From the NCBI RefSeq assembly GCF_001942255.1, contig NZ_MKKC01000022.1, positions 62,001 to 126,000 on the forward strand: a DNA stretch of 64,000 nucleotides, in the 5' to 3' direction. The notes beneath the pieces are model-generated. The model saw only the letters and a list, made by a program, of their open reading frames with translations. It was not told the DNA's origin and did no database searches. This stretch comes from Nocardiopsis sp. CNR-923. GTDB taxonomy: Bacteria; Actinomycetota; Actinomycetes; Streptosporangiales; Streptosporangiaceae. Position 1 is the first letter of the stretch. The number at the start of each line of letters is the position of its first letter. Position numbers and translations under genes: made by a program. Below, one piece after another: positions 1-64,000 of the stretch.

Positions 1-203
1 TGTCGGGCGTGGGCAAGTACACGGCCCAGGGGTTCGGCGCGGTCCGCGTGGACACGGTGACCAGAACGGGGATGACTCCCCAGGCCCCCGCACCCCGTTC
101 CCGCGGGCGAGCGGACCGGGGCGGGCGCCGCGCGCCCCGGCGGGTGGACGGCCCACGTCCACGGATGGCGGCCGAGGAGTTCAGCGGGACGCTCTTCGAC
201 TGA
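1..203 (+). CDS. Cas6-like RAMP protein, C-terminal end (partial)
   Basis: The gene enters from the left edge and stops at 201-203; the visible codons are in the frame starting at position 3. The first residues read SGVGKYTAQGFGAVRV, which fits the glycine-rich G-x-GK...GFG-x-V loop near the C-terminus of Cas6 pre-crRNA endonucleases and other RAMP proteins. After the loop comes a basic tail of about 45 residues rich in Arg and Pro that looks like low-complexity extension. The position just upstream of a type III effector operon on the same strand supports a crRNA-processing role. A different RAMP protein is possible because only the last 67 codons are present. Confidence 0.5.
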   Translation, partial: SGVGKYTAQGFGAVRVDTVTRTGMTPQAPAPRSRGRADRGGRRAPRRVDGPRPRMAAEEFSGTLFD

Positions 204-810
204 TCCGGGACCGCCGGCTCCCGCCCGGGGACGGCGGGCGGGGGTCGGTCCGGCGGAGCCCCGCGCCCGCTCGGCGGTCGGTGGGGCGGGGCGGCGGCCA
301 CGCGCTGGCGCCCGGCACACACCGCGCCGCCCGCAGCCGTGAGCGCGAACCCGACCCGGCGCGCTGAATCGTGCCCCCTGGCCGGCCGCCGCCCGGGTAC
401 GGGGCATCACACCCGGGGGCCCCGGGCGCGAGGTCCCGGTCCCCCCCGTCGATCCCTCAGCACCCGTGCAAGTCCTCGCAGGTGGGGGACCAGGTCCTGG
501 GCGGTCAGCGGCGCCGGGACGGCGGGCGCAGGGGCCGCGGGCGGGCCGGGGAACGCCGTGGGTTCCGGAAGGTGCCGTGTCATGGTGGGGACCTCTCCGT
601 GCGGGAAGGGCGGATGCGCATCCAGCTCTCTCGGACACTGTCCTGGGCCCTGGCCGGAACGGGACGATTCGCCACGAGACGGTGTCGGACCGTCGGCGCA
701 CCTGGTATCGATGGTGATCGTGGCCGTACCGGCAGCGTCCGAGAGAGGTCACCAGGACGCCCCGCACGTCCGGCCCCCATCCCCGCCCGTCCAGAGGGAG
801 ACCTCCCACG
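204..810. other. Intergenic stretch before the effector operon; no CRISPR array seen
   Basis: About 600 bases lie between the Cas6-like stop and the Cas10 start. The overlapping open frames here are typical high-GC shadows and none has a family-like sequence. I looked for regularly spaced repeats and found none, so any array must lie outside the window. The only small structure I noted is a perfect 12-bp palindrome, GGATGCGCATCC, at 612-623. The leader and promoter of the effector operon are presumably here, but I cannot point to a convincing -35/-10 pair. Confidence 0.5.
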
Positions 811-2675
811 GTGACTCGTCGCGACCCTCGGCCGCCCTTCCCGGCGCGGTCGTTCCCCCGCAGTGAGGAGGCGGGAGATCCGCCGGTCAGCGGTGTGGTG
901 GTCGGCGTGGACCTGCGCGGCATCCAGGCCTTCGTCTTCGGCGGTCGGCGCATCCTCGACGCGGTGGGAAGGGCGGCCCTGGTCGCGGAGTTGACCGACA
1001 CCGCGAACACCCGCCACGGCGTCGCCGACCTGCTGCCGCCCGACCACGTGGTGCTGCGCGACGCGGGCGGCGCCCTCACCCTCGTCCTTCCCGACCTGCC
1101 CGCCGCACGGGAGTTCACCGGTCGTTACACCCGGCGGCTGCGGGACCTGGCCGGGCGGCTCACCCCCGTGGTCGCCCTGGTCCCCTACGGTCCCGTCGGC
1201 GACGGGACCGGGGCCGGGCGGGTCGTCTCGGGCGTGGACGAGGCCCTGGCGGCGCTGCCCTCGCGGCTGCGCGACGCCCGACGGCGCATGTCGGCTCTGC
1301 ACACCCCCGCCCACGGGTACGGCGTGACCGCGGTGTGCGCGGTCACCGGGGGGCCCGCCGAGGTCGTGGACGGCAGCCGGGCCCAGGACGGCGACGCGGG
1401 CGTCCACGAGCGGGTGACGGCCGACGTGGCCCGAGCGCGCGGGGTGGGCCGCCGCTGGCACCGCGCGCACGGCGCCGCGTGGTTGGACGGGGCGGTCACC
1501 GCCACGGGGGAGCCCGAACTCGCGCTCCCCATGGAGGTCGACCGGCTCGGCCGCGACCACGGCGACCTCAGCCGCCTGGCCGTCGTGCACGTGGACGTCA
1601 ACGGGCTCGGCGCCATCCTCGGCGACTACCGCGACCGTGTCGCCGACCCCGCCGCCCCCGGATCGGGCGCACTGGCCCAGCGGACCCTGTCCATGCGCAT
1701 CGCCGACCTCACCGAGGGTCTGGCCCGGGCCCTGGTCCGTGCGGTCGCCGCCACCGTCCACGCCGAGCCCGGCCGCCGCCCGCACATCCCCGGCGCGGGC
1801 GCGGCTGGCCCGGTCTCCCTCTTCCACACGCCGACCGGGCCCGTCCGACTGCCGCTGCGCCCCATCGTCGTGGCGGGCGACGACCTGACCGTCGTGTGCG
1901 ACGCCCGGCTCGCGCTGAGCCTGACCCGGTACGCCCTGGACTGGCTGGACGCCGACCCCGATCGGATCGCCGACCCCCGCGACCCCCGGGTGGCCCTGCA
2001 CCGGGTGCTCGCCGGGGCCCGTGGCGGCGTGTCCGACGGCGGTCGCACGGTCACCGGTCCGGACGGGCGCGTGCACTCCACACACGTGCCGACCGTCGGC
2101 GCGGGGATCGCGGTCCAGCCCGTCGGCGCGCCCCTGTGCCTGGGTTACGACCTGTGCGAGGCGATGTGCCGCCGCGCCAAACAGCATCGCGTCGACCGCG
2201 CGGCGACCGACCCCACGGCCCCCGACGACCACGCCGTCGCCTGGACCACCCGCTTCGACGGGGCGGAGCGCGTCCTGCGCAGGCTCGACCAGGCCCGTCA
2301 GGCCCTCGATCCGCGCACCTCACTGCCCCTGACCGGCACCGGTTTCTCCCTCTTCCTGGACCGCTACCTGTCCGGGGACGCGCCCGGCGGCCTGCTCGCG
2401 GACGGCGACACCCGCCACCGGGGCTGGCTGGTGTCCGCGCTCGTCCCGCTCCTGGAGGCTGGCGCCGACCCGGGCCCGGAGATCGACCGCCGCGCCCGGG
2501 TGACCGGCGCCCCCGTCGCGCTGCCCCCGGACTGGACCCCCGGCGCGCTGCTGGACGCCGTCGAGGTCATGGACCTGTACCTGGACCCCGGCCTGGCCGA
2601 GGCCCTCCCGCCCCACCTGCCCCAACCCCCCGACCGCGAGGCCGCGTCCCGGCGGCGAAGGGCCCGTTCCGGTGA
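811..2675 (+). CDS. Cas10-like large subunit, HD domain absent, 3' end frameshifted
   Basis: Predicted signalling subunit of a type III effector complex. GTG start at 811 follows a GGGAG ribosome site. The protein begins almost directly with a palm fold (GVDLRGIQAFVFGGRRI, residues about 31-47), so the N-terminal HD nuclease domain of many Cas10 proteins is missing. A second palm carries HVDVNG (Asp 262) and VVAGDDLTVV (GDD at 356-358), the metal-binding motif of the cyclic oligoadenylate synthase with Ala in place of the first Gly. The frame has no stop until 5229 and would run through the next gene as Arg-rich junk. Restoring one base near 2640-2660 makes it end at TGA 2673-2675, overlapping the next GTG by 4 bases like the next three junctions, and gives 621 residues. 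Confidence 0.75.
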
Positions 2676-3433
2676 GCCGCCCCGACCGCATCGCCGTGCA
2701 CCTGGCCTCGCCCGCCCTCTTCGTCGGCGCCAGCGCCGACGGCACCGGGGCCGACACCGACGTGGTCACCGACGACCACGGCCTGCCCTACCTGCCCCGC
2801 CACCGCCTGTCCGCGCGCCTGCGCGCCGGGGCGGCCAGCGCGTCGGCCGTCGCCCCGCACCTGTTCCGCGCTGCCGACGACCTCCTGGGCCGCGACGGCT
2901 CACACGGCCCCGACCGCATGCTGCGCGTGGGCCACGCCGTTCTCGGGGTCGAGGTGCGCGCCGCCGTGGCCCGCGCGTTGGCCGGGCGCGCCGAACCCGT
3001 GCGCACCACCCTGCGCCGAGCGGTCACCGACGCCTTCACAGCCCTGGAGTCGGGGGTGGAGATCGGCTCGGGTGGCGCTCCCGAACCCGGGCGGCTGCGC
3101 ACCCACCGGGTCCTGTTGCCCGGGCTGACCCTGACCGCCGCGCTGACCTGGGCCGCGCCTCCGGAGGAGGAGCACTGGCGGATCCTCGCCCGCGCCTGTC
3201 TGGCCACCACCCAGATCGGATCGAAGGGCTCTCGGGGCCGCGGTCGCGTCGACGTCCGCCTGGTCGGCCCGGGACCGGAGGACCCGCACGCCACGACGCT
3301 GCGGCTGGCCGCCCCACCCGCCCGGGTGAACACACCGCACCCGGGGACGGTCCCCGATCCCTCCGCCCCGCAGGCCCCGCCCGCTCCGTGGACGCGGACC
3401 GGCTCGGCGGCCCGCGGGAGGGAGGCCCGGTGA
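2672..3433 (+). CDS. Csm3/Cas7-like RAMP protein
   Basis: Single-domain RAMP protein of 253 residues, predicted backbone subunit that coats the crRNA. The N-terminal part has the family layout of a short strand (IAVHLASPALFVGA), an Asp-bearing loop (TDVVTDDHGLPYLP) and a basic helix where Csm3 has its P-x-IPGSSLKG segment. Near residues 178-195 is the Gly-rich loop TQIGSKGSRGRGRVDV. The Asp in the first loop aligns by position with the Csm3 RNA-cleaving Asp, which is an inference from motif order. GTG start at 2672 sits in a GTGA overlap with the Cas10 gene after repair of that gene's break; the stop overlaps the next GTG in the same way. The last 40 residues are Pro-rich. Confidence 0.7.
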   Translation: MSRPDRIAVHLASPALFVGASADGTGADTDVVTDDHGLPYLPRHRLSARLRAGAASASAVAPHLFRAADDLLGRDGSHGPDRMLRVGHAVLGVEVRAAVARALAGRAEPVRTTLRRAVTDAFTALESGVEIGSGGAPEPGRLRTHRVLLPGLTLTAALTWAAPPEEEHWRILARACLATTQIGSKGSRGRGRVDVRLVGPGPEDPHATTLRLAAPPARVNTPHPGTVPDPSAPQAPPAPWTRTGSAARGREAR

Positions 3434-5229
3434 CCCCCGCCCCACGCACCGCCTACCTGCCGCTGCGCTACGTCCTCACCGACACACTGGCCGTGCGTAC
3501 CGCCTTCGACCCCCTGAGCGTGGAGTCCGCGCACGTCATCAGCGGGAGGTCCCAGCGCGGCATGTTCGCCGCCGCCCTGCGCCGCGCCGGACGCCACGAC
3601 GACCTCGACGCCTGGGTGGCGCGCGGCGACGCGCTGCGCTTCGCCCCCGCCCACCCCCGCCTGGAGCCAGACGGCGACCCGGCCGCGGCCCACCTGCCCC
3701 GCGCGGCCGCCGCCCTTCCTCCGCCCGCCTACCTCCACACCCCCGGCAAGGACGGCGACACCACCGTCGACGTCTTCGGTCCCACCGACCCGGCCACCGC
3801 CTACCGCGCGGTCCGCGACCCGCTGACTCCCGACCGCTCGCTGCGCGCCCGCCTGCGCACCACCGCCGAGCAGTACCTTGGCCGGTCCCGTGCCGGCGCC
3901 ACCGCCCAGGGGGTTCCCTTCCTCACCACCACGCTCGACCCTGGGCAGGTCTTCGAGGCCCGCTGGCAGCTGCGCGCCCCGGACACCGCGGCCCTGCGCT
4001 CCCTGGCCGCACGGGTGGTCGCCGCCCTCGCCGAGGCCGGGGACACGCTCACCCTGGGATCGGGCGGCACCCGGGCGCACGGCGGGGTCCGCGTGGCCCC
4101 CGTCGACCCCGACCGCCTGCTGGTGCCCGACCGGGTCGACCCGGTGCGCCCCGACCGCTCCTGGCCCGCCGGAGCCCCTGTCGACCTCCTGCTGCTCTCA
4201 CCCGCGCTCGTGGTGGACGAGCACGGTCAGCACCGGCCCGATGCGCTCGTGCCCGCCGTGCTCGACCTGCTGGGACGGCGCCTGCCCGACACCCGAGCCG
4301 AGGTCCTGGCAAGCCATGTCGAGGCCGAGACCGTCGGCGCCTACCACCGCGGCTACCAGGGGCCGATGGCCGAGCGCTGGGCCGCCCGGCCCGGTGCCGT
4401 GGTCCGCCTCCGCCTCGACCGGGACCTGACCACCGAACGGGCCCGGCTCCTGGAGGCGCACCCGCTCGGGGAGCGCGTGGTGGACGGCCACGGACAGTTC
4501 ACACTCGCCTTCGCGCCGCCGCCCGTCCCCGAACCGCTCGCCCCGCTGGCGGAGCCCCTCGCGGGCGGGGACCGGGTCGTGCTGTCCGCGCCCCCGGACC
4601 CGGACGCCGACGCCCAGCTGCGTTCCCTGTACGACGACCTGTTGTGGAACGCCGTCGCCCCACCGGTGCGCGACCACGCCCGCGCGCTGGTGCGGGGTTC
4701 CGCGCACCTGCTCACACCGCTGACCCCCAGCCTGGTGGGCCGTCTGCGCGAGGTCGTGGTCCACCCCCACCGCACCCCCGAGGACGCCCTGGCGGCCCTG
4801 CACCGCGTCGTCGCGGGCGACTTCTCCGCCGACGCCGACCCCTCCGGAGCGCGCAGGGTGCTGCACGACCGGGCGGTGCGCGCGCTGGAGCGCGCCCGGC
4901 TGGCGCGACCCGGTCGACCCGGCACCGTCACGGTGCGCGCCTGGCTGGAGGATCTGGCCGGGGGCGCCGCCGCGTGGTGGGCCGACAACCGTCCGGATCC
5001 CCGACACGGCCCCGCCTACGCCGAAGCCGTCGCCGCCGTCGACCTGACCTTGACGGACGGCCGGCCGCCGCGCGCCCACCCCAGCGGCCTGTCCGCGCAC
5101 GCCCGGGCCTGGGAGCGTCGGGGGGCGGCGCGTCTGTGCCTGGTCCTGGTCTCGTCCTGGCTGGCCGAGGCCGCCCGCGTCCCGCGCCCGGCCGCGGACG
5201 GCGGCCCGTCCCGGGGAGGCCGCGGGTGA
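3430..5229 (+). CDS. Csx10-like RAMP protein
   Basis: RAMP protein of 599 residues, the size and layout of Csx10, the Cas5-like subunit that marks type III-D systems. An N-terminal RAMP fold (AYLPLRYVLTDTLAVRT) is followed by SGRSQRGMFAAALRRAG, the position where the family has its G-S-x-L-R-G-x-L motif. The Gly-rich segment LGSGGTRAHGGVRV lies near residues 215-228. Further on, GAYHRGYQGPMAERW and GAVVRLRLD match the G-x-N...G-x-P...A-x-x-x-GSV region I know from Csx10. The gene is in the same frame as Cas10 with no stop between, but the true start is the GTG at 3430 inside the GTGA overlap with the previous RAMP gene. It ends in a GTGA overlap with the next gene. Confidence 0.6.
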   Translation: MTPAPRTAYLPLRYVLTDTLAVRTAFDPLSVESAHVISGRSQRGMFAAALRRAGRHDDLDAWVARGDALRFAPAHPRLEPDGDPAAAHLPRAAAALPPPAYLHTPGKDGDTTVDVFGPTDPATAYRAVRDPLTPDRSLRARLRTTAEQYLGRSRAGATAQGVPFLTTTLDPGQVFEARWQLRAPDTAALRSLAARVVAALAEAGDTLTLGSGGTRAHGGVRVAPVDPDRLLVPDRVDPVRPDRSWPAGAPVDLLLLSPALVVDEHGQHRPDALVPAVLDLLGRRLPDTRAEVLASHVEAETVGAYHRGYQGPMAERWAARPGAVVRLRLDRDLTTERARLLEAHPLGERVVDGHGQFTLAFAPPPVPEPLAPLAEPLAGGDRVVLSAPPDPDADAQLRSLYDDLLWNAVAPPVRDHARALVRGSAHLLTPLTPSLVGRLREVVVHPHRTPEDALAALHRVVAGDFSADADPSGARRVLHDRAVRALERARLARPGRPGTVTVRAWLEDLAGGAAAWWADNRPDPRHGPAYAEAVAAVDLTLTDGRPPRAHPSGLSAHARAWERRGAARLCLVLVSSWLAEAARVPRPAADGGPSRGGRG

Positions 5230-6914
5230 CCCCGGCACTGGTCTGGGAGGTCACCGCACACCTGTGCCTGCTGTCCGACACCCATGTGGGCGCCGCCCAG
5301 GCAGGCGCGCGCCACGCCGCCGAGAGCGACCTCGACCTGCACGTGGACCGCGATCCGCGCACGGGGGCGCCCCGTCTGCGCGCCACCACCCTGGCCGGGC
5401 TCCTGCGCCACGAGCTGGCCGAGCGCACCGGCGACCCCGACCGCGTGGGCACGCTCCTGGGTTCCGCCGAGCCCCGAACCGAGACCGGCCAACGGGTGCT
5501 GCCGCCCCGCCCCAGCGCGCTCGACCTCGACGACGCCCAGGCGGTCCTGCCCGGGGGGACGACGGTCGCGGTGCGCGCGGGGACGCGCGTGGACCCGGCC
5601 ACCGGGGCCGTGCGGCCCGGGCGAACGTGGCAGTGGGAGATCCTGCCCGCCGGAACCGTCCTCACCGCGCACCTGCGCCTGCGCGTGCCCACCCCCGCCG
5701 ACGAGTCCGGGCTTCTGGAACTGCTCGTGCTCGCCGCCGGGGGGCTCGACGGCCTGGGGGCGGGCGCGCACGTCGGCGGTCGTACGGGGAGGGGGTACGG
5801 GGCGGTGCGGGTCACGCGCTGGACCGCCCGAAGGTATGACCTCACCGACGAACACGGGTGGTTCGCCCACCACGCACGGACCTGGGCCGAACGCTGGTCG
5901 CGGGACGCCGCCGTCCCGGGGCCGCCCCCCGTCGAGGAGTCGGGCGCGGGAGTTCCCGGCACGGGCCGCGCGGACCTGCTGACGGCTCTGCGCGGCGAGC
6001 TGGCCGCCCGGGGGCGCTCTCCGGCCGTCGCCGGACCGGCCGTCCTCGCTCCCGCCGCCGACCGCCGTCGACGCGCCGAACTCCACCTGGCGCTGGCCGT
6101 GGGCGAACGCACCCCGCCACCGGTCGGCGACGGCTCCGTGGACGACGTCGGGGAACGTCGAGACGGCGTCGGCCCGCTGCCCGATCCGCGTCCTGGGCTG
6201 CTCATGATCGGGGACGCACCGACCGGTGACCGGATCAGTTCGGTCGACCGCGCCCACCGCCGCCGCCCGGTCGGGGCCGCCGCCGACCCCACCGACGTCC
6301 GCCTCGCGCCCGTCCTCGGCGACACCGCCCTGTTCTCCCTGTTCAAGAGGGTCGCCGCCCGTCTGGTGCGCGACACCGCCGAACATCTGGGCGGCCCGTC
6401 CTCCCTCTGGCGGCACTGGCACGCCCACTGGTGGGGCGCCGACGCCGAACGGGGCGTGCCCCGGCCCTCGCGCGTGCGCCTACGGGCCACCCCCGTCCTG
6501 ACCGGCGGCGCGCCGCTGACCACCACCCGACTGACCGTGGACGCCCTGTTCGGCGACGCGGTCGACGGCCGCCTGTTCACCACCGACCTGCACTGCGGCG
6601 GTGCCGCGGAGGCCGTCCTCGACGTGCGCGAACCCGACGAGGCCGTCCTCGGCCTGCTCACCCTCCTGGTCAGGGAACTGGCCACGGTCCCCTTCGAGAC
6701 CCTCGGCGCGGGCACGGGCAGCGGAAACGGACGCGTCACCGCCACCGGCGCCGCCGTGACCATCCACCCCGGCGACGGCGGACCGGCGCGCACGGTCGAC
6801 CTCACCGCCGCCGTGTTCGCGCCCGCCAGCCCCGAGGCGGCCACCGCTCGGCGCTGGTTGGCCGCGCTGCACGCCCGCCTGGCGCCCGCCGACCCGTCCG
6901 GAGGTGACCGGTGA
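5226..6914 (+). CDS. Double Cas7 (Csm3-like) fusion RAMP protein
   Basis: Protein of 562 residues with two Cas7-type domains. Domain 1 (about 1-200) has SDTHVGAAQ, then an Asp-rich loop ESDLDLHVDRDPRTGAPRLR in the place where Csm3 carries the catalytic Asp, then LAGLLRHEL and the Gly-rich loop GGRTGRGYGAVRV. Domain 2 (about 330-530) has SLFKRVAARLV, TVDALFGDAVDGRLFTTDLH, close to the Cas7 segment ending in a 'gaLf-x-x-E' strand, and GAGTGSGNGRVTATG. A variable linker (about 215-320) joins them. Fused Cas7 subunits are known in type III-D and III-E systems. Two backbone positions made from one chain would fix their order in the complex. GTGA overlaps on both sides show translational coupling. 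Confidence 0.65.
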   Translation: MTPALVWEVTAHLCLLSDTHVGAAQAGARHAAESDLDLHVDRDPRTGAPRLRATTLAGLLRHELAERTGDPDRVGTLLGSAEPRTETGQRVLPPRPSALDLDDAQAVLPGGTTVAVRAGTRVDPATGAVRPGRTWQWEILPAGTVLTAHLRLRVPTPADESGLLELLVLAAGGLDGLGAGAHVGGRTGRGYGAVRVTRWTARRYDLTDEHGWFAHHARTWAERWSRDAAVPGPPPVEESGAGVPGTGRADLLTALRGELAARGRSPAVAGPAVLAPAADRRRRAELHLALAVGERTPPPVGDGSVDDVGERRDGVGPLPDPRPGLLMIGDAPTGDRISSVDRAHRRRPVGAAADPTDVRLAPVLGDTALFSLFKRVAARLVRDTAEHLGGPSSLWRHWHAHWWGADAERGVPRPSRVRLRATPVLTGGAPLTTTRLTVDALFGDAVDGRLFTTDLHCGGAAEAVLDVREPDEAVLGLLTLLVRELATVPFETLGAGTGSGNGRVTATGAAVTIHPGDGGPARTVDLTAAVFAPASPEAATARRWLAALHARLAPADPSGGDR

Positions 6915-7648
6915 CCCATCACCCCCCGCTCCCCGCGGGCCTGGCCGTTCGCCGGTTGACCTCCGAGGAGGTCGACGGCGTCCTCACCGACGTGTTCGAC
7001 CGCGGATCACGGTGCCGCCTCCTGGACGCGCCCGACGCCCCGGACCGGCCCCAGTGGCTGCTCGCCGAACTCGGCGACGCGCGCGTCACCGGCACCTGTC
7101 CCCGCGACCGTTGGTACCGCTCCGACACCCATCCGGGAGCCGACCCGACCACGCGGCCCCTGGCTCCCGCCGCCGACCGCTGGCGGATCCTGGAGGTCCT
7201 GGTCTTCTCCGCCACCGCCCAGATCCGCCTCGGCGAACGGGCTGAGGCGGGGTGGATCAGCGCTGACGACCCCGAACCGGTCCCGGCCTGGCTCCGCCCG
7301 AGGGACCGCTCCTTCCTCCTCCAGGGCTGGAACGGGCCCGCGCACAGCCGCACCGTCGACACCCGGGCGCCCCTGTCGGTGACGCGGGAGCCCGGTGGGG
7401 CCAGGGCCGTCCTCCCGGTGGCGTGGGCCGACTTCGCCGGGCACCCGCGCCCGGCCCCGGGCGGGCGCACGGCGCTCTCCAGCCGGGGAACGTGGCTGAC
7501 CGTCCGCGAGTACTGGGCCGCCGACCCCGCCACCGGCGCCGTCGGGGTCGCCTTCCACCGCCTCACCGGCCTGTCCACGGGCGCCAAACCGACCGGACCG
7601 GAGATCGACGTCGGCACGGGCGACGAGATCCCATGGGCGGGGGACTGA
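6911..7648 (+). CDS. Csx19-like protein of type III-D loci
   Basis: Protein of 245 residues between the double Cas7 and the TIGR03986-like gene, coupled to both by a GTGA overlap at the start and TGATG at the end. Features that recall Csx19 (TIGR03984) are WLLAELGDARVTGT near the N-terminus, a central RWRILEVLVFSATAQIRLG followed by a Trp-containing segment, and a C-terminal VREYWAADPATGAVGVAF-H-R-L pattern. No catalytic motif is apparent. Csx19 has no settled molecular role that I can state; it travels with csx10 and csm3-like genes. The call rests on context plus weak motif similarity. Confidence 0.55.
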   Translation: MTHHPPLPAGLAVRRLTSEEVDGVLTDVFDRGSRCRLLDAPDAPDRPQWLLAELGDARVTGTCPRDRWYRSDTHPGADPTTRPLAPAADRWRILEVLVFSATAQIRLGERAEAGWISADDPEPVPAWLRPRDRSFLLQGWNGPAHSRTVDTRAPLSVTREPGGARAVLPVAWADFAGHPRPAPGGRTALSSRGTWLTVREYWAADPATGAVGVAFHRLTGLSTGAKPTGPEIDVGTGDEIPWAGD

Positions 7649-9906
7649 TGCGGCGTCGGGACGGTTTCCCACCGTGCGGCGACAACCATGACGGCGAACC
7701 TTCGGCCCGGTCGCGGGTCCGGTACCCCGCCACGGCCCCCTACGGCCTGGTGCGCCTGGCCGACGCACCGACGCCCGCCGCCGACCTGCACGCGGGGTTG
7801 CGCACCGACGACCTCCTGCGCAGCCACGACCGCACGGTCGAGGGCACCCACTCGGGCTGGATCGAGCTGACCCTGACCACCCTCACGCCCACCTTCGTCG
7901 GACAGACCCTCGACCGGGGCGCGGTCAACGTCTCCACCCGCTTCCCGCACGGTGACGCCCCCCTCCCCGCGATCCCCGGTTCCACCCTGCGCGGCCTCGT
8001 CCGCAACACCGTGCGCCTGCTCACCAGCGGTGAGACCGGTCCGGTCAACACCCCGATGCTGTTCTTCCGCGCCCCCGTGCGGATCGACCCCGACAGCGCC
8101 GACAGCGCGCTGTCCACCCGCGCCCGCCAGGTCATGGCCCACCAGCACGCCCACTACCGCAAACGCCGAGCGGGCCTGCGCACCAGGCAGGGGTTCCTGT
8201 TCCACGCCGCCGACGAGGACCGGTGGTACGTCGTCGAGGTGGCGGCCACCCCGCTGACCGGCGAGGCGGGCCAGGCTCTGCGGGTGTCCTTCGACGTCCT
8301 GCGTGAGAGCCTGCGGACCTGGGACTTCGGGGTCGCGGACTTTCCCGACCCGCCCCGAGCGGGCGGTTACGTCCCCACCGCGCACGACCAGCACGGCCGT
8401 CTCCAGTTCCGCTGGGTGCACGCGGTCCACCTGCCCGGCCAGAAGCGGGTCTGCGCCGTGGCCCCCACCGAACCCGAGGCCCGGGGCTACCTCCGCGCCC
8501 GCGCACCGCACGCACGAGGACGCGGGCGCGGCGGGGTCGTTCCCTGCCTGACCGTCCTGACCGGGGTCGCCGCCGGGGAGCGCCGCAACGCCTACCTCTT
8601 TCCCCGTCCCTTCGACCTGCGCTCCGGGCGCTCTCCGGTCCCCGACGCCATGGTGGAGCTGTTCGAGTCCGCCGAGCAGATCACCGGCTACCAGCGCGTC
8701 GCCTTCCCCGACGCTCTCGGCGTGGACACCGCCGATCCCCGCCGCCCGCCGGTGGCGGGGGCCAGCGGCGGCGGACTGCCCCGAGACGGGCTCGAACCGG
8801 TCTGGTTCGACGTCGACCTGTCCGGCGACGTCGTCTCCTTCGGCCGGTCGGGCGGCTACCGGATCGCCGTCAGCGACGACAACCCCGTCCGCCGGGCCGT
8901 CCCCGCGGCGGTTCTGGGACCCCAGCGCGGCGACCCCGACCGGGCGGGCCGCCCGGTGGACGTGTGCCGCGCGATGTTCGGCGACACCGACACCTTCGCC
9001 GGGCAGGCGGGCGCGTCCAAGGGCCGGGTCTCCTTCGGGCACGCGCTCAGCGCCGACCCCGACCCCGACTACCCCGACGGCGCGGCCCTGCGCGTGCGCC
9101 TGCTCTCCCCGCAACGCGGCTGCTTCGCCAACTACCTCGTGCAGGGGCCCGACGCGGCCGCCGGGGACCGGCCCGACATCGTCACCTGGTCCCACGAGGG
9201 GCGCGTCCGTCTGGGCGGATACAAGACCTACCTGCACAGGCACCGCGCCGATCTGGGCCGGCCGGTGCGGTACGACGCCCGTGCCCAGGAGGAGTTGGGC
9301 GTCACGGTGCTTCCACCGGGGCACCGGGCCGAGCCGGTCCGCGACACCCAACGCGACGTCGTGCCCCTGCGCGACGGCCTCACCTTCCGCTCACGCGTCA
9401 CCTTCACCAACCTCACCGACGGTGAACTGGGTGCGCTCCTGCGCGCGCTGCTCCTGGACAACCCGGTCGACGGCGGGGACCCCGCCGACCCGGCCCACGC
9501 GCACAAGATCGGCATGGGCAAGTCACTGGGCATGGGCAGTGTGCACCTGCGGCCGCGGCTGTACCTGGTCGACCGCGGGGCGCGCGCGGTCTCGCTCGAT
9601 CCGGCCGCCGGGGTCACCCGAGCCAGCGACGCGCGCGTGCAGGGGTTCCTTGACGCGTTCGGTGCCGCGCTGGTCGGCCGCAGGCTGTCCGGCGAACCCC
9701 GCCCCGAGCGTTGGCGCGAGGTCGACCAGGCCGTGGACGTGTGCCTGGCCAGCCGGTGGCGCGACCGGCTTCCGTGGGATCGCACGGCCGTGATGTCACT
9801 GCGTGAGTTCGCCGAGTACCCGGTCCTGCCGCCGCTGACGGTCCGGTTCGCCGACGCGGACCGGGAGCGCGGTCGGCCCCCGACCGCGCCCGCGCACCGC
9901 GGATGA
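7648..9906 (+). CDS. TIGR03986-like RAMP protein
   Basis: Large RAMP protein of 752 residues, last gene of the effector operon. The start ATG overlaps the upstream stop (TGATG) and has a run of G just before it. Family landmarks are APYGLVRLADA near residue 32, HSGWIELTLTTLTPTFVG, then PAIPGSTLRGLVRNTVRLL, the classic P-x-IPGSSLRG-x-R motif. Later come RVSFGHA with an Asp-rich stretch, VRLLSPQRGCFANYLVQG, RVRLGGYKTYLHR, and near the C-terminus HKIGMGKSLGMGSVHL, the H-K-x-G-x-GK-x-x-G-x-GS loop typical of this family. The role is probably crRNA or target RNA contact in the complex. It stops 16 bases from a convergent gene. Confidence 0.72.
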   Translation: MRRRDGFPPCGDNHDGEPSARSRVRYPATAPYGLVRLADAPTPAADLHAGLRTDDLLRSHDRTVEGTHSGWIELTLTTLTPTFVGQTLDRGAVNVSTRFPHGDAPLPAIPGSTLRGLVRNTVRLLTSGETGPVNTPMLFFRAPVRIDPDSADSALSTRARQVMAHQHAHYRKRRAGLRTRQGFLFHAADEDRWYVVEVAATPLTGEAGQALRVSFDVLRESLRTWDFGVADFPDPPRAGGYVPTAHDQHGRLQFRWVHAVHLPGQKRVCAVAPTEPEARGYLRARAPHARGRGRGGVVPCLTVLTGVAAGERRNAYLFPRPFDLRSGRSPVPDAMVELFESAEQITGYQRVAFPDALGVDTADPRRPPVAGASGGGLPRDGLEPVWFDVDLSGDVVSFGRSGGYRIAVSDDNPVRRAVPAAVLGPQRGDPDRAGRPVDVCRAMFGDTDTFAGQAGASKGRVSFGHALSADPDPDYPDGAALRVRLLSPQRGCFANYLVQGPDAAAGDRPDIVTWSHEGRVRLGGYKTYLHRHRADLGRPVRYDARAQEELGVTVLPPGHRAEPVRDTQRDVVPLRDGLTFRSRVTFTNLTDGELGALLRALLLDNPVDGGDPADPAHAHKIGMGKSLGMGSVHLRPRLYLVDRGARAVSLDPAAGVTRASDARVQGFLDAFGAALVGRRLSGEPRPERWREVDQAVDVCLASRWRDRLPWDRTAVMSLREFAEYPVLPPLTVRFADADRERGRPPTAPAHRG

Positions 9907-58738: not shown

Positions 58739-61165
58739 TCAGGTCTGGTGGGAGTGGTTCTCCGGCGTGGGGACGACGCCTTCGGGCGCGCTGTCGGGAC
58801 TCCCGGCGGGGCTGGCTTGGACATCGGCGCTGATGCCCTTGGGCGCCGTGCCGGCGGGAGGGGAGCCGCCCTCCTCGGCTGAGGCGGACTCGCCCCTCTC
58901 CGAGGGATCCGCGGACGCCGACTCCGTGCATTCGGCTGGCCGGCCGTCCTGCACCGTTTCCCCGGTCCTGTCCTCGGATCCTTCTCCCGTCTCTCCGTCG
59001 CCCACCGAGGCTTCGACCGCCGCGGAGTCCGCGGACTGCTCGGCCGAAGGGAGTTCAGGAGACTCTGGGGGCGCGCCCTCGTCGGTCCGATCGAGGCTGC
59101 CCCGGTCGGACACGGGGGGACCGGGTCGGACCGGAGGCGTCGCGGTGGCCGCGGACGACCGGTGCGGTGCGGCGGCGGTGCGGCGAGCGCGCCACACGAA
59201 GAAGGCCCACACGGCGAGCGAGAGCACCCCGAAGCCGACGAACAGGGCGGCGGTCGCGAGGAACGACTCGGGCTCCGTCTTGCCGGCCACCTCGTCGGGG
59301 TGCATATGGAGCAGGTACACGAAGACGAACGCCCCCGGAACGAAGGCCAGCGCCCAACGCAGACGGCCCCAGCGCCAGAGGCGGTGCCCGTCCAGGAACT
59401 TCATCGGCAGCAGGCCGAACACGACCGTCTGGATGCCGAGCAACGCGGTGGACGACAGCGCCTTGTCCAGGAGCCGGGCTCCGAACGGGGCTCCTCCTTC
59501 CACGACGACGGGGTGCAGGGAGTTCCAGAACAGGTAGCAGGCGACGGCCAGGGCCAGCACGCACAGGGCGCCCGTGAGCGTGGCCCGACCCTCGTGCTCG
59601 CGGACGAAGGCGTCCCGGGCGGAATCGGGCATCCCGAGTTTGGCCCCGCGGTCGGCCACGGCGGTGAACCCTGCGATCAGGCCGTAGAAGTAGCCGGGCT
59701 CGAAGTCCGCCGCCGCGGAGGCCGCCGAGCACACGGCGACGATCGCCAGACCGGCCGGAAGCACCTCGAAGCGGCCCGGTACCTGGGACCAGGACCAGTC
59801 GCGGGCGTGGACCACCCACGCGTACAGCACGGTCACGGCGAGCACCGCGATGAGCAGGCCGAGGAAGTCCAGAAGCGGTGTGCCCTCGGGGGGATCCTTC
59901 CAGCCCGACCAGACCGGCAGCGCGGCCGACAACCCCCAGAAGACGAGGAACGCCGCAAGCGCCCGGCGGGAGAAGAGGGCCCGGCCCAGCACACCCGCCT
60001 GGAGTAGCGCGCGCAGGCGCCGTCGCCAGGCGCGCGGGCGTCCTCGGTTTCCCTCCAGCGCCTTGTTGAAGATGTCGGAGGGGAAGCCGAGCAGCAACCA
60101 CACCGTGCCGCCCAGGGCCGCGGCGACGGCCAGGGCCGTGAAGAGGGTGGCCGGGTCGGTGCGCAGTTCCGACAGGAGGGGGATTCCGTCACCGTCGCCT
60201 GACACGGGTTCGGGCTCCGGGGCGGCGGGCGGGGCCGCGTACCCGTTGATGAAGGGGAACTCCAGGCCCTCCCCGATGATCGGATCCGTCGAGGAGAGGC
60301 TGTACCCGGGGACGGTCAGCAGGTGCGAGCCGGGTTCCAGATCCGGGGGGAGCGCGAACCCGTCACCGGCCGCGTCGAGGGTCACCGGGTCCCCGTCGAT
60401 CTCGACCTCCAGCACGTCGCGCCCGTCGGGGACGATCGGCAGGATCCCGTCCCGAATGACGGGGTCGACTGGGTCCACAGTGTGCGTCGGCTCGAAGTAG
60501 GCGAAGGGAGGCGCGAGGAACTGGCTCGCCACCCGTTCCCAATCGCCCTCGGGTGAGAGGCATTCGATGGAGGCCGTGAAGTCGCGATAGGGCATGCTCT
60601 GCGACGGCTCGTCGGGGAACCGGTACCCCGGACGGTCGAACATGACCAGGAGGTCGTCGGGGTCGGCGTAGAAGACGGAGTACTCGTCCTGGGACATCTC
60701 GAAGGAGATGTTCGGGTCGCCGGCGCTGGACGTGAACTCTCCGCCGCCGAACAGCCGCACACCGCGACTTTGCTCACCACCGGGGCCCTCGGCTCCCTCG
60801 GGAAGCGCGCACGCGGCGGCGTCGGGCACCACGGCCAGGAGCACCACGTCGGAGCCCGGGTTCCACAGCTCGTACCAGCGGGCGGACCCCTCGGGCTCGG
60901 ATTCCTCGTCTGCGTGCGCGGCCGGGGGAGGGCTCGGAACCCCGACCAGGGCGAGGGCGGTCAGGGTGGCGCAGGCGCCGACCCAGGCGGATGAGGACCA
61001 TCGCCGACGGTCCCGGCGGGATCGGGCGGTGGGCTCGGCTCCGAAGACGGCGGGGAGCGCTCGGAGCCGGTGACGTCCTCTCCGCCGCTGGGCTCCGAGA
61101 GCGGGTTGCGTTCGGCCGCTCGCCTGGTCCGAGGATCGGCGGTGACCGTGTGCGGCTCGCTGCAT
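58739..61165 (-). CDS. FGLLP motif-containing membrane protein
   Basis: Protein of 808 residues. ATG 61165 follows GGGAG. A long basic leader (about 60 residues) precedes one hydrophobic segment (WVGACATLTALALVGVPSP) that may be a signal. Residues about 85-340 are an extracytoplasmic domain, acidic and Pro-rich. Then about nine membrane spans (340-640) include VVFGLLPMKFLDGHRLWRWG, the motif that names the family. The C-terminal 150 residues are Ser/Glu/Pro-rich and disordered. The role is unknown; it sits downstream of the TIR/SLOG operon on the same strand with a 370-base gap. Confidence 0.65.
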   Translation of the reverse strand: MQRAAHGHRRSSDQASGRTQPALGAQRRRGRHRLRALPAVFGAEPTARSRRDRRRWSSSAWVGACATLTALALVGVPSPPPAAHADEESEPEGSARWYELWNPGSDVVLLAVVPDAAACALPEGAEGPGGEQSRGVRLFGGGEFTSSAGDPNISFEMSQDEYSVFYADPDDLLVMFDRPGYRFPDEPSQSMPYRDFTASIECLSPEGDWERVASQFLAPPFAYFEPTHTVDPVDPVIRDGILPIVPDGRDVLEVEIDGDPVTLDAAGDGFALPPDLEPGSHLLTVPGYSLSSTDPIIGEGLEFPFINGYAAPPAAPEPEPVSGDGDGIPLLSELRTDPATLFTALAVAAALGGTVWLLLGFPSDIFNKALEGNRGRPRAWRRRLRALLQAGVLGRALFSRRALAAFLVFWGLSAALPVWSGWKDPPEGTPLLDFLGLLIAVLAVTVLYAWVVHARDWSWSQVPGRFEVLPAGLAIVAVCSAASAAADFEPGYFYGLIAGFTAVADRGAKLGMPDSARDAFVREHEGRATLTGALCVLALAVACYLFWNSLHPVVVEGGAPFGARLLDKALSSTALLGIQTVVFGLLPMKFLDGHRLWRWGRLRWALAFVPGAFVFVYLLHMHPDEVAGKTEPESFLATAALFVGFGVLSLAVWAFFVWRARRTAAAPHRSSAATATPPVRPGPPVSDRGSLDRTDEGAPPESPELPSAEQSADSAAVEASVGDGETGEGSEDRTGETVQDGRPAECTESASADPSERGESASAEEGGSPPAGTAPKGISADVQASPAGSPDSAPEGVVPTPENHSHQT

Positions 61166-61535: not shown

Positions 61536-62665
61536 TCACGTCGCGGACGACGCCGTGCCAGGACCGTCGTCGGGCGCGGCCCCGGCGGCCGGTATCCGTT
61601 GCCCCTCGCCGCGGAGTCGCTCCAGGACCAGGTCGAAGGTGAATCCTGCGCTGAACCCCAAAGGGATGACGAAGAAGAGCAGACGGCGCGCGTCCAGCAT
61701 GTCGAGCAGGTCCGGCACGGTGAGCAGTTGCGCCGCCACGTACAACAGGACCGAGACCGTTCCGGCCCCCAGCCCGCGCACCCCCGCGTGCAGCCAGGAC
61801 CCGCCCTCACCGAAGGAGTTGCGGATCAGCGCGCCGGAGACGGCCGCGGACATCGGTGCGACCAGGAGGGCGGCGAGGCTGGTCGCCGAGGCGGGAGCGG
61901 GTCCCCCGACCAGGGGGATGGCGCTGAGCGCTGCTGCCAGCAGCAGTCCGGCGGCCAGGATGACGCACGCCTCGGCCCACCGGTGCAGTCGGGCCCGGGT
62001 CCGTTCCCCGCGCGCCCGCGCGTCGCGTTCGTCCGCGTGCCGCACGAGCGTCGCGACCAGGTCCGTCGCGGACTCGGGCGACCACGGCGCGCCCATGAGC
62101 CGCATGTCCTCGTCCGTGGCGTGGTTGCGGACCTTGTCGAGGTTGGTCCACACCTGTTCGGCGCCGCCGCCGAATGCCGCGACGGGCAGGATCGGGACGT
62201 CCTGCGCCATGGCGAGGATCCCGGTGATGCGGGTGGACTGGCCGCCGCCGACCAGGATGACGCCGTCGGCTCCCAACAGGGCCCGGTAGAAGGGCACCTC
62301 CCACTCGCCGCTCGTGTCGCGGACGGTGCGCACGCGCGCGGTGGAGGACTCGGGCAGGGGGAGGGTGAAGGTCTTGTGGCGGGGAGGGTGCGCGATGATC
62401 GTTCCCGGGGACCGCGCGGTGGAGGCCTCCGCGTAGCCCAGGGCCGTCAGCGCCTCCGCGTACGTGGGCCGGTCGGAGAAGACCAGGAGATCGCATTCGG
62501 CGGCGGCGAGCGCGCGACCGATGTCGTGGCAGGCGTCGCGGGCGCCCCAGGTTCGCGGAGGGGCGGACGGTAGGTGCGGTCGGGGTCGACGCTGCCGACC
62601 ACCGCGATCCGCCGTCGCGGTCGTCGCCGGGCTGCCGCCGCGTTGGCGGGCGGGGCGGGCGGCAT
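61536..62665 (-). CDS. SLOG-domain protein with C-terminal membrane region, frameshifted
   Basis: Protein of 376 residues after repair. The N-terminal SLOG (Rossmann-like nucleotide sensor) begins RIAVVGSVDPDRTY, breaks frame near 62545 in a C run, and with one added base continues TWGARDACHDIGRALAAAEC and LLVFSDRPTYAEALTALGYA. The ligand loop is GADGVILVGGGQSTRITGIL and ILPVAAFGGGAEQVW. Residues about 240-350 hold four membrane spans (EACVILAAGLLLAAALSAIP to LLFFVIPLGFSAGFTFDLVL). ATG 62665 follows GAGGAG and lies 4 bases from the TIR-like gene stop. A nucleotide-gated membrane effector is the likely role, by analogy with SLOG effectors in TIR systems. Confidence 0.72.
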
Positions 62666-62669
62666 GGTG

Positions 62670-63593
62670 CTACTCCTCGGGGAGGTCGTCGCGGATCGAG
62701 CGGATCGCCTGCGCGTGACCGGTGGCGCCGGTGGACGATTCCAGGGCGTCGGCGACCCACCCGAAGACGTGGGCGCGCCGGTACTGCGTGCACAGGTGTT
62801 TGAGCAGGTTCTGGTGGCGTTCGGGGGAGGGCGAGGTGTGCGGCCACTGCCAGGCCTGGAGTGGAACCCCCATGGGTCGGCTGCGGGCGATCCCGTCCAG
62901 GAATCTGGACCAGGTGTCCTCCTCGTCGAGGGAGGGGACGTGGGAGAGGATGTGCACGAGCTTCTCCGACGGTGACAGCTCAGGGGGCGGTTCCGGGACC
63001 GGTGTCGACTGTTTCGGACGCCTCCAGGCGCTCGCGTCCCAGGAGAGTTGAGGTCCCTGGCCGTCGTCCAGAGCGGGCAGGTCGTGGGAGAAGGCCTCGA
63101 CGACCAGGGTGGCGATCGTCTGGCAGGTCTCCCGGTAGGGGCCCTGGTTGTCTCGGTCCATCAGGTGGAGGACACCTCGCCGCCTGGCGTCCTGGTGCAC
63201 GTACCAGTCGGTGCGCTGCTGTGAGCGGATCGCGTCGGGAATGGGAGAGGACAGGGGGCGCCAGATCACGGGGATGATCCACGGTACGCCGGCGTCCGTG
63301 TGATCCCCGCGCCTGCGGATTCGCTCGTCCACCGTCCACCACTCCTTCGCGCACCAGTCACTTCTGAAGTACCTGTCGCTCAGGAGCGCCACGAGGCAGC
63401 CGACGGTGGCGCATTCCTTGAGGAGTCGCCGTTTCCATCCGGGGCCGGGCGTCAGCGTGGGTCCGCTGACCGCCCGCGTCTCCTCGTGTCCTTGCAGTCG
63501 GACCGCCCTTTCGAGATCGCGGAGGAACCTTTGGACGTATTCCCGCTCGGGTGCGCGGTCGCCGTAGCTCAGGAAGAAGTGAGGGGCCTTCAT
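62670..63593 (-). CDS. TIR-like (FxsC-type) protein with C-terminal adaptor-like domain
   Basis: Protein of 307 residues. The N-terminal 190 residues are TIR-like of the FxsC sort: HFFLSYGDRAPEREYVQRFL, VGCLVALLSDRYFRSDWCAK with EWWTVDERI, and PWIIPVIWRPLSSPIPD. After a Pro-rich linker (about 200-213) a helical domain starts SPSEKLVHILSHVPSLDEED and ends AHVFGWVADALES, which looks like an effector-associated (death-like) adaptor domain. The catalytic Glu of NADase TIRs would be in the WCAKEW region, but activity is uncertain. ATG 63593 is 11 bases from the stop of the preceding TIR gene. Confidence 0.7.
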   Translation of the reverse strand: MKAPHFFLSYGDRAPEREYVQRFLRDLERAVRLQGHEETRAVSGPTLTPGPGWKRRLLKECATVGCLVALLSDRYFRSDWCAKEWWTVDERIRRRGDHTDAGVPWIIPVIWRPLSSPIPDAIRSQQRTDWYVHQDARRRGVLHLMDRDNQGPYRETCQTIATLVVEAFSHDLPALDDGQGPQLSWDASAWRRPKQSTPVPEPPPELSPSEKLVHILSHVPSLDEEDTWSRFLDGIARSRPMGVPLQAWQWPHTSPSPERHQNLLKHLCTQYRRAHVFGWVADALESSTGATGHAQAIRSIRDDLPEE

Positions 63594-63604
63594 GGATCAC
63601 CGCA

Positions 63605-64000
63605 TCACGTAGGGGGGGAACGCAGGGCTGTGAGCAGACGCTGGATCATGGCGTCGTCGAGACCGTAGAGCGGTATGGGACGCAGGGCCCCGCTTCCCGG
63701 GGGCGGGTCGTGGTCGACCTGGACCCAGACCGCGCGTGGTCCGCACGGTGCGCCCGCGGTGCCGCCGGATCCCACGGGCAGGCGCGCGGCGGCCGTCCAG
63801 TTGCGTGAGAGCACGACGACCTCGGCGTCCGAGCGCGTCTCCCGCGTGGAGGACGCGGCGAGTGACCCACGGGGGTCGTGGTCGACGAGGTCGACCCGGT
63901 ACCCGGCGTCGACCAGCAGGCCGCGCAGCCAGTTCGCCCACGGCCGGTCGGCGGCGACGTGGTTGATGGCCACCCGGTGCGTCCCGGCGCGGCCGGCCGT
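63605..64000 (-). CDS. TIR-domain protein, C-terminal part (runs off the right edge)
   Basis: The frame is open to the window end, so the start lies outside. Visible residues include HRVAINHVAADRPWANWLRG, then LLVDAGYRVDLVDHDPRGS and DAEVVVLSRNWTAAARL, the first strand, box-1-like loop and third strand of a TIR domain with C-terminal PLYGLDDAMIQRLLTALRS. A GTG at 63973 could start a short form, but that would cut into the first TIR strand. It is first of the visible genes in the TIR / TIR-like / SLOG operon. Confidence 0.65.
   Translation of the reverse strand, partial: TAGRAGTHRVAINHVAADRPWANWLRGLLVDAGYRVDLVDHDPRGSLAASSTRETRSDAEVVVLSRNWTAAARLPVGSGGTAGAPCGPRAVWVQVDHDPPPGSGALRPIPLYGLDDAMIQRLLTALRSPPT

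Follow-up and report, generated by a model that had tools for sequence, protein, structure and literature searches.

Thoeris systems, in which a TIR protein is paired with an effector, are represented by several architectures. Type I combines the TIR protein ThsB with ThsA, a SIR2-SLOG protein, while in type II the TIR protein is accompanied by a ThsA in which transmembrane (TM) spans are joined to a macro domain, and for which membrane perturbation has been proposed (PMC11204291). For types I, II and IV, descriptions are available (PMC11204291, PMC12948488, PMC12847820). In a further source, FxSxx peptide systems are coupled to a TIR/AP-ATPase/TPR gene, which can also stand alone and then has an inactive MinD/ParA domain; the effector domains associated with vWA are said there to include SLOG (PMC7159879). 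The locus considered here lies at the right-hand end of a 64,000-nucleotide stretch (the window; G000:C22:62001-126000, contig NZ_MKKC01000022.1) from Nocardiopsis sp. CNR-923, a soil-type actinobacterium whose draft genome spans 152 contigs and 5.5 Mb. It combines an FxsT-type STAND protein, an FxsC-like TIR protein and a SLOG protein with four putative membrane spans, here called SLOG-TM.

The locus can be read as a two-step TIR-to-SLOG signalling module resembling nucleotide-binding leucine-rich repeat (NLR) systems, in which FxsT would sense, FxsC would signal and SLOG-TM would permeabilize the membrane; a probability of about 0.5 is attached to this reading. FxsT, with its ParA-like domain, degenerate TIR domain, NB-ARC-type ATPase and TPR repeats, would respond to a trigger and switch on FxsC, which would convert NAD+ to an ADP-ribose-type signal. 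Bound in the SLOG pocket of SLOG-TM, the signal would cause the four spans to open or cluster, and permeabilization of the membrane would then stop the infected cell. The module reading is based on gene content, gene order, conservation, residue pattern and the SLOG relationship; the trigger, the chemistry of the signal, the damage to the membrane and the role against phage we infer. A TIR signal with a SLOG membrane response is the best reading because the coupling of the genes is conserved, because it recurs elsewhere and because FxsC keeps its glutamate. This much of the original prediction, made from the letters of the window, has held, although the largest part of the module, the ParA-TIR-NB-ARC-TPR protein, falls outside the window.

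As first reported, three minus-strand genes occupy positions 61536-64000; the gaps between them are ~11 and ~5 bases. SLOG-TM (61536-62664) encodes an N-terminal SLOG domain followed by four hydrophobic stretches, and is preceded by the gene for the FxsC-like TIR protein of 307 amino acids (62670-63593). The gene at the right-hand edge had been taken for a single TIR; it does encode TIR domains, but as a double-TIR protein of 329 amino acids (63605-64594; L006:4606-5595), 594 bases of which lie beyond the edge at 64000. The module is thereby cut, and extension of the contig rightwards (L006, in which a position equals the window position minus 58999), a step that had been suggested, yielded the remainder of the double TIR, FxsB, two further genes and FxsT. 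The last of these (1301 amino acids, minus strand, window-equivalent 68444-72349; L006:9445-13350) matches NF040586 with 598 bits (cut-off 300) and comprises a ParA-like ATPase, a weak TIR, an AAA/NB-ARC domain and TPR repeats. Read from the far side, the minus strand carries FxsT, a 366-amino-acid frame and a 402-amino-acid gene; plus-strand FxsB follows, and then the double TIR, FxsC and SLOG-TM, all on the minus strand.

Among the TIR domains of the module, only that of FxsC looks enzymatically competent from its residues. The FxsC-like protein matches TIR_2 above the cut-off (35 bits; cut-off 28) and NF040588 below it (101 bits; cut-off 130), in keeping with the predicted FxsC-like TIR, whereas the 'death-like' helical domain ascribed to it has no library match above threshold. 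Its motif W80-C81-x-x-E84-W85, in which we take E84 to be the TIR catalytic glutamate, is invariant in all eight Nocardiopsis loci. The glutamate is a general feature of FxsC and not specific to the module, because higher-scoring FxsC proteins of other genera carry it at all 30 loci examined (out of 60 matches over the cut-off). The double TIR matches TIR_2 with its C-terminal half (41.6 bits) and FxsC_Nterm with its N-terminal half (48.5 bits; cut-off 130), and has glutamine at the catalytic-glutamate position in both available copies; in the TIR domain of FxsT, no catalytic-glutamate motif was found by eye in any of six proteins. Both of the TIR proteins first reported are present, but of the two it is FxsC that looks competent, and not the double TIR.

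Matches to SLOG-TM at E <= 0.001 were obtained in 12 of 297 genomes in an order-level search, nine of them strong (this genome, seven others of the genus and one Nonomuraea) and three weak; within Nocardiopsis SLOG-TM is present in 8 of 40 genomes. A scan of named genomes returned 12 loci, and a class-level search, in which a single protein was the query and distant copies may escape, returned matches in 13 of 394 genomes, eight of them strong. At all eight Nocardiopsis loci the order FxsT-FxsC-SLOG-TM is constant on one strand, although in one of them (L041) the contig, of 4.8 kb, starts within FxsT. Sixteen SLOG-TM neighbourhoods were read, namely the present one, the seven other Nocardiopsis loci (L038-L044), L045-L048, L097, L098, L112 and L113; weak or differently built loci were left out of the count (L035, L036, L037, the SLOG-TIR fusion L049, and G985, G765, G709, G937 and G945, among which only G985 was read, as L114). 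This survey of homologue neighbourhoods, likewise proposed at the outset, placed a TIR gene within ~4 kb of SLOG-TM at 12 of the 16 loci and within 8 kb at two more, with a STAND gene only at one and neither at another. The partners outside Nocardiopsis are varied: an overlapping TIR gene (L045; TIR_2, 60 bits), a TIR gene (39.5 bits) together with a gene that by eye resembles a STAND ATPase (L046), a divergent gene with the look of a TIR and weak TIR-type model matches (L048), a divergent TIR gene (46 bits) with a vWA-like gene, itself below the cut-off, nearby (L097), a gene with AfsR/STAND-TPR-type matches below the cut-off (L098), and a MoxR gene (bpMoxR, 35 bits, over the cut-off) with kinase-type matches below the cut-off (L113).

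Counted by genome, a TIR_2 match lies within 8 kb of SLOG-TM in 12 of 13 genomes (58 TIR_2 matches in all), for which the per-genome chance is 0.3-6.4%, bearing in mind that the distances were already known when the 8 kb limit was chosen and that 8 of the 13 genomes belong to one genus. Beyond that genus the proximity is found in four of five genomes (G282, G425, G479 and G899; it is lacking in G838). Within it, 11 of the 15 TIR_2 matches of the eight Nocardiopsis genomes fall at this locus, and all seven Nocardiopsis genomes in which FxsC was matched, within a 200-genome sample, carry SLOG-TM. On a broader and more tentative proposal, which is possible but short of probable, these loci would exemplify a kind of bacterial NLR immunity in its own right: a ParA-TIR-NB-ARC-TPR receptor would activate a TIR enzyme encoded separately, and the ADP-ribose-type product of that enzyme would gate SLOG-TM, whose layout of four spans fused to SLOG would parallel that of the ADP-ribose-gated channel TRPM2. 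Among actinobacteria, TIR, STAND and MoxR-vWA systems would all make use of this effector. Were the module reading true, FxsT and FxsC proteins, whose role is so far predicted, would gain a plausible output, NB-ARC/TIR receptors would in bacteria be linked both with a diffusible signal and with a membrane effector, and the SLOG-TM family would constitute a portable effector, the ligand of which could be tested directly with ADP-ribose isomers.

The predicted arrangement of SLOG-TM, a SLOG domain and then four spans, is recovered in part. Four hydrophobic stretches follow the SLOG domain in all 12 SLOG-TM proteins, with a fifth inside the SLOG core, but no Pfam or NCBIfam cut-off was reached for the SLOG assignment in library scans. 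Profile comparison supports the assignment: the SLOG-TM profile aligns with a SIR2-SLOG protein (L036) at probability 95.5 (E 1.4e-8) and with a planctomycete SLOG-CAP12-TIR fusion (L049) at probability 98.0 (E 2.4e-13). The former (G239:C10, L036:1140-2504) was found via its SLOG domain and is ThsA-like, matching the PADLOC ThsA model with 206 bits. With its SLOG domain as query, three matches were obtained in 396 genomes, all of them SLOG-TM genes, with that of the present genome the best (E 1.1e-5). SLOG-TM also matches 1rcu (E 0.007), and TIGR00725 matches two of 12 members (best E 0.012). The planctomycete protein, from an uncultured Schlesneria metagenome-assembled genome (L049:5697-6818), has SLOG fused to a CAP12/Pycsar-type TIR (86 bits), so that sensor- and enzyme-type domains reside in one protein.

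Pocket-type residues are conserved in SLOG-TM. These include G-S after the first strand in all 11 proteins covering it, R107 and R119 (each in 11 of 12), and W-E-V and G-G-G (each in 12 of 12); R107 is numbered as in the protein of N. prasina, where the trio is intact. The STALD pocket of ThsA is formed by Ser288, Phe357, Arg371 and Glu403 (PMC7272460, available in part), and by eye S18 and R107 of SLOG-TM look like counterparts of Ser288 and Arg371. The concern that the SLOG pocket might lack ligand residues is in this respect eased, though not for every residue, as set out below. Alternatively, SLOG-TM could act at the membrane to eliminate the TIR product, as an enzyme or as a sink, and so restrain the TIR/STAND pair. 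Cleavage of nucleotide N-glycosidic bonds is an activity of some SLOG domains, and for those of viruses a role in breaking down ADP-ribose signals has been proposed (PMC9503650); however, the four spans and the constant pairing with a TIR enzyme resemble ThsA-type effectors, and in SLOG-TM no residue was identified as the catalytic one of an enzymatic SLOG. A role of this kind is improbable.

Several results weigh against a TIR-to-SLOG signalling module. In this genome SLOG-TM does not form the single open frame that had been assumed: its start at ~62664 and its end at 61536 lie in different frames, and the family profile matches it in two pieces with a junction near 62543-62546 (profile position 26), within the approximate site given by frame analysis and the two-piece match together (62540-62560, minus strand). 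The copies of relatives are open frames. The gene is thus apparently broken by a frameshift, through either mutation or assembly error, and because of this the present copy may be silent. Neither SLOG-TM nor FxsC nor the double TIR is matched by any of the Thoeris models of PADLOC, those for ThsA and ThsB in particular leaving SLOG-TM and FxsC unmatched while recovering the ThsA-like control (L036), and no Thoeris model matched SLOG-TM when 12 members and then three more were compared; the PADLOC matches seen were weak and unrelated (Unk_06 to SLOG-TM, 14.7 bits; PDC-M28B to the ParA part of FxsT, 21-30 bits). The Pfam STALD family does not match, the sole hit among nine SLOG-TM members being at E 0.31; a STALD search at SLOG-TM loci gave no match, as did its 14 controls, and by eye there is no counterpart of ThsA Glu403. 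As for the neighbourhoods, L047 has an nSTAND1-WD40 gene (352 bits) and no TIR was seen there, L112 has neither a TIR nor a STAND gene nearby, and two of the SLOG-TM-to-TIR distances are long, at 7.7 kb (L098) and 7.6 kb (L113). Identities of SLOG-TM and FxsC across the eight loci are correlated (r 0.93, reached by 3 of 5000 permutations), but such co-divergence would also follow from shared ancestry alone. Finally, the cluster itself contains a plus-strand gene for the radical SAM protein FxsB (window-equivalent 64928-66244), scoring 424 bits against TIGR04269 with its cut-off of 370.

Accordingly, membership in an FxSxx ribosomal-peptide pathway, named early on as a possible refutation, must be considered. 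The trio may be an accessory arm of an FxSxx-COOH system, in which FxsB would modify a small precursor, with FxsT and FxsC as its regulators or responders and SLOG-TM serving to anchor or export part of the pathway. FxsB indeed has FxsT on one side and the TIR genes on the other, both here and in N. flavescens (L044), these two loci also being those that carry the extra double-TIR gene, and the coupling of FxSxx systems to TIR/AP-ATPase/TPR genes, including the standalone form with the inactive MinD/ParA domain, is on record in the available part of PMC7159879. Against this, of the seven loci long enough to tell, five are without FxsB, so that the trio does not need the peptide pathway. No convincing FxSxx-ending precursor was found in the eight loci scanned, which gave three short or antisense frames only, and neither a metallopeptidase nor a clear precursor was seen in the present cluster. 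A search of one genome for the FxsA family returned no match, but since its control was also without a match, absence of FxsA is not shown. The genome furthermore has a second, higher-scoring FxsB locus of canonical appearance on another contig (C93; L013, G000:C93:1-16000, ~26-5253), where there are an FxsT-type gene and, by eye, an HExxH peptidase gene, no match to FxsC or SLOG-TM is found, and no open reading frame ends in FxSxx within L013 positions 1-9000. As the sole account, the peptide pathway was rejected, five of the seven informative loci having no FxsB; as an accessory arm it is weakened by those loci and rather unlikely, though it may apply at the present one, with FxsB inside the cluster.

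Matches to the FxsT model occur in all 40 genomes of the genus, 39 of them over the cut-off, and in PMC7159879 systems of this sort are associated with prokaryotes that are multicellular; both would suit a programmed response unrelated to phage, in which the module governs cell death or compartment behaviour in filamentous growth. The trio is nevertheless patchy (8 of 40), and its flanks vary: in a comparison of six loci, L038, L040, L042 and L043 have flanking genes in common, and those at the present locus and at L044 are different from them. This is more like accessory cargo, and a developmental role of this sort is accordingly given little credence beside the signalling module. At six comparison loci with an FxsT-model match but without SLOG-TM (L087-L092), the FxsT parts match those of the present protein weakly and there is no match to FxsC, FxsB or SLOG-TM; by eye, the neighbours in L087, L088 and L090 resemble a different trypsin/vWA system.

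Other features of the FxsT proteins and of the surrounding genes can be noted. A C-terminal tail, (I/V)-(D/E)-x-x-(V/I)-P-E-I, is conserved in FxsT of six sister loci (stop codons at L038:8872, L039:8905, L040:8952, L042:8946, L043:9015 and L044:5859) and lacking in that of the present genome. In N. eucommiae (L029/L039), the matches to FxsT and FxsC are spread over different frames, through decay or sequencing error, with SLOG-TM open. Just upstream of FxsT at L038:2372-4224 are a PrsW-type intramembrane protease gene (104 bits) and a small gene without an assigned family, with counterparts in L040, L042 and L043. Between FxsT and FxsB of the present locus, both on the minus strand, lie the 366-amino-acid frame (window-equivalent 67435-68535; family not assigned) and the 402-amino-acid gene (window-equivalent 66261-67469), which has no family match and by eye is like a membrane antiporter. 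Downstream of SLOG-TM is a gene for an 808-amino-acid membrane protein with an FGLLP motif (window 58739-61165; NF041501, 337 bits), which shows no sign of belonging to the module.

Of the systems described, those nearest to the locus are Thoeris, the FxSxx-associated systems and TIR-SLATT. As in Thoeris type I, a TIR protein with a catalytic-type glutamate (FxsC E84, 8 of 8) adjoins a SLOG protein, the SLOG domain of which is related by profile to that of the ThsA-like protein; unlike in type I, SLOG-TM has no SIR2 match, its spans come after the SLOG domain and a STAND protein forms part of the unit. Type II likewise joins a signal-sensing domain to membrane spans, but the sensor here is SLOG (there is no macro match in SLOG-TM), the domain order differs and the partner is a STAND protein. 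Plain membership in type I or II was rejected, there being no SIR2, macro or Thoeris model match. Type III is approached by four TIR partners of SLOG-TM in other genera, which match ThcB4 (NF058526) weakly (19-33 bits; cut-off 220), while the TIRs of the present genome have no ThcB4 match. TIR-SLATT systems also pair a nucleotide-linked TIR with a membrane effector (PMC7159879 and PMC9503650, both available in part), but SLATT is a two-span domain, whereas here four spans are fused to SLOG; SLATT_2 matches SLOG-TM of L113 at E 2e-4 (21 bits; cut-off 40), SLATT_1 matches one of 12 members at E 0.17, and the others gave none above noise. Of the components of the FxSxx-COOH system, FxsB is present here over the cut-off and at one of six informative sister loci; FxsT scores over its cut-off, but FxsC below its own (101 against 130 bits). 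With the FxSxx, standalone ParA-AP-ATPase, VMAP and MoxR-vWA ternary systems, the locus shares an FxsT-type TIR-NB-ARC-TPR gene with a ParA-like domain, but an FxsC adjoining a four-span SLOG protein is not mentioned in the available part of PMC7159879. No SLOG four-span effector with FxsC or FxsT was found in the literature covered, most subscription papers and preprints being outside that coverage. The arrangement may overlap with Thoeris type III; judged from these comparisons it is likely new, and its parts are known from other bacterial immune systems.

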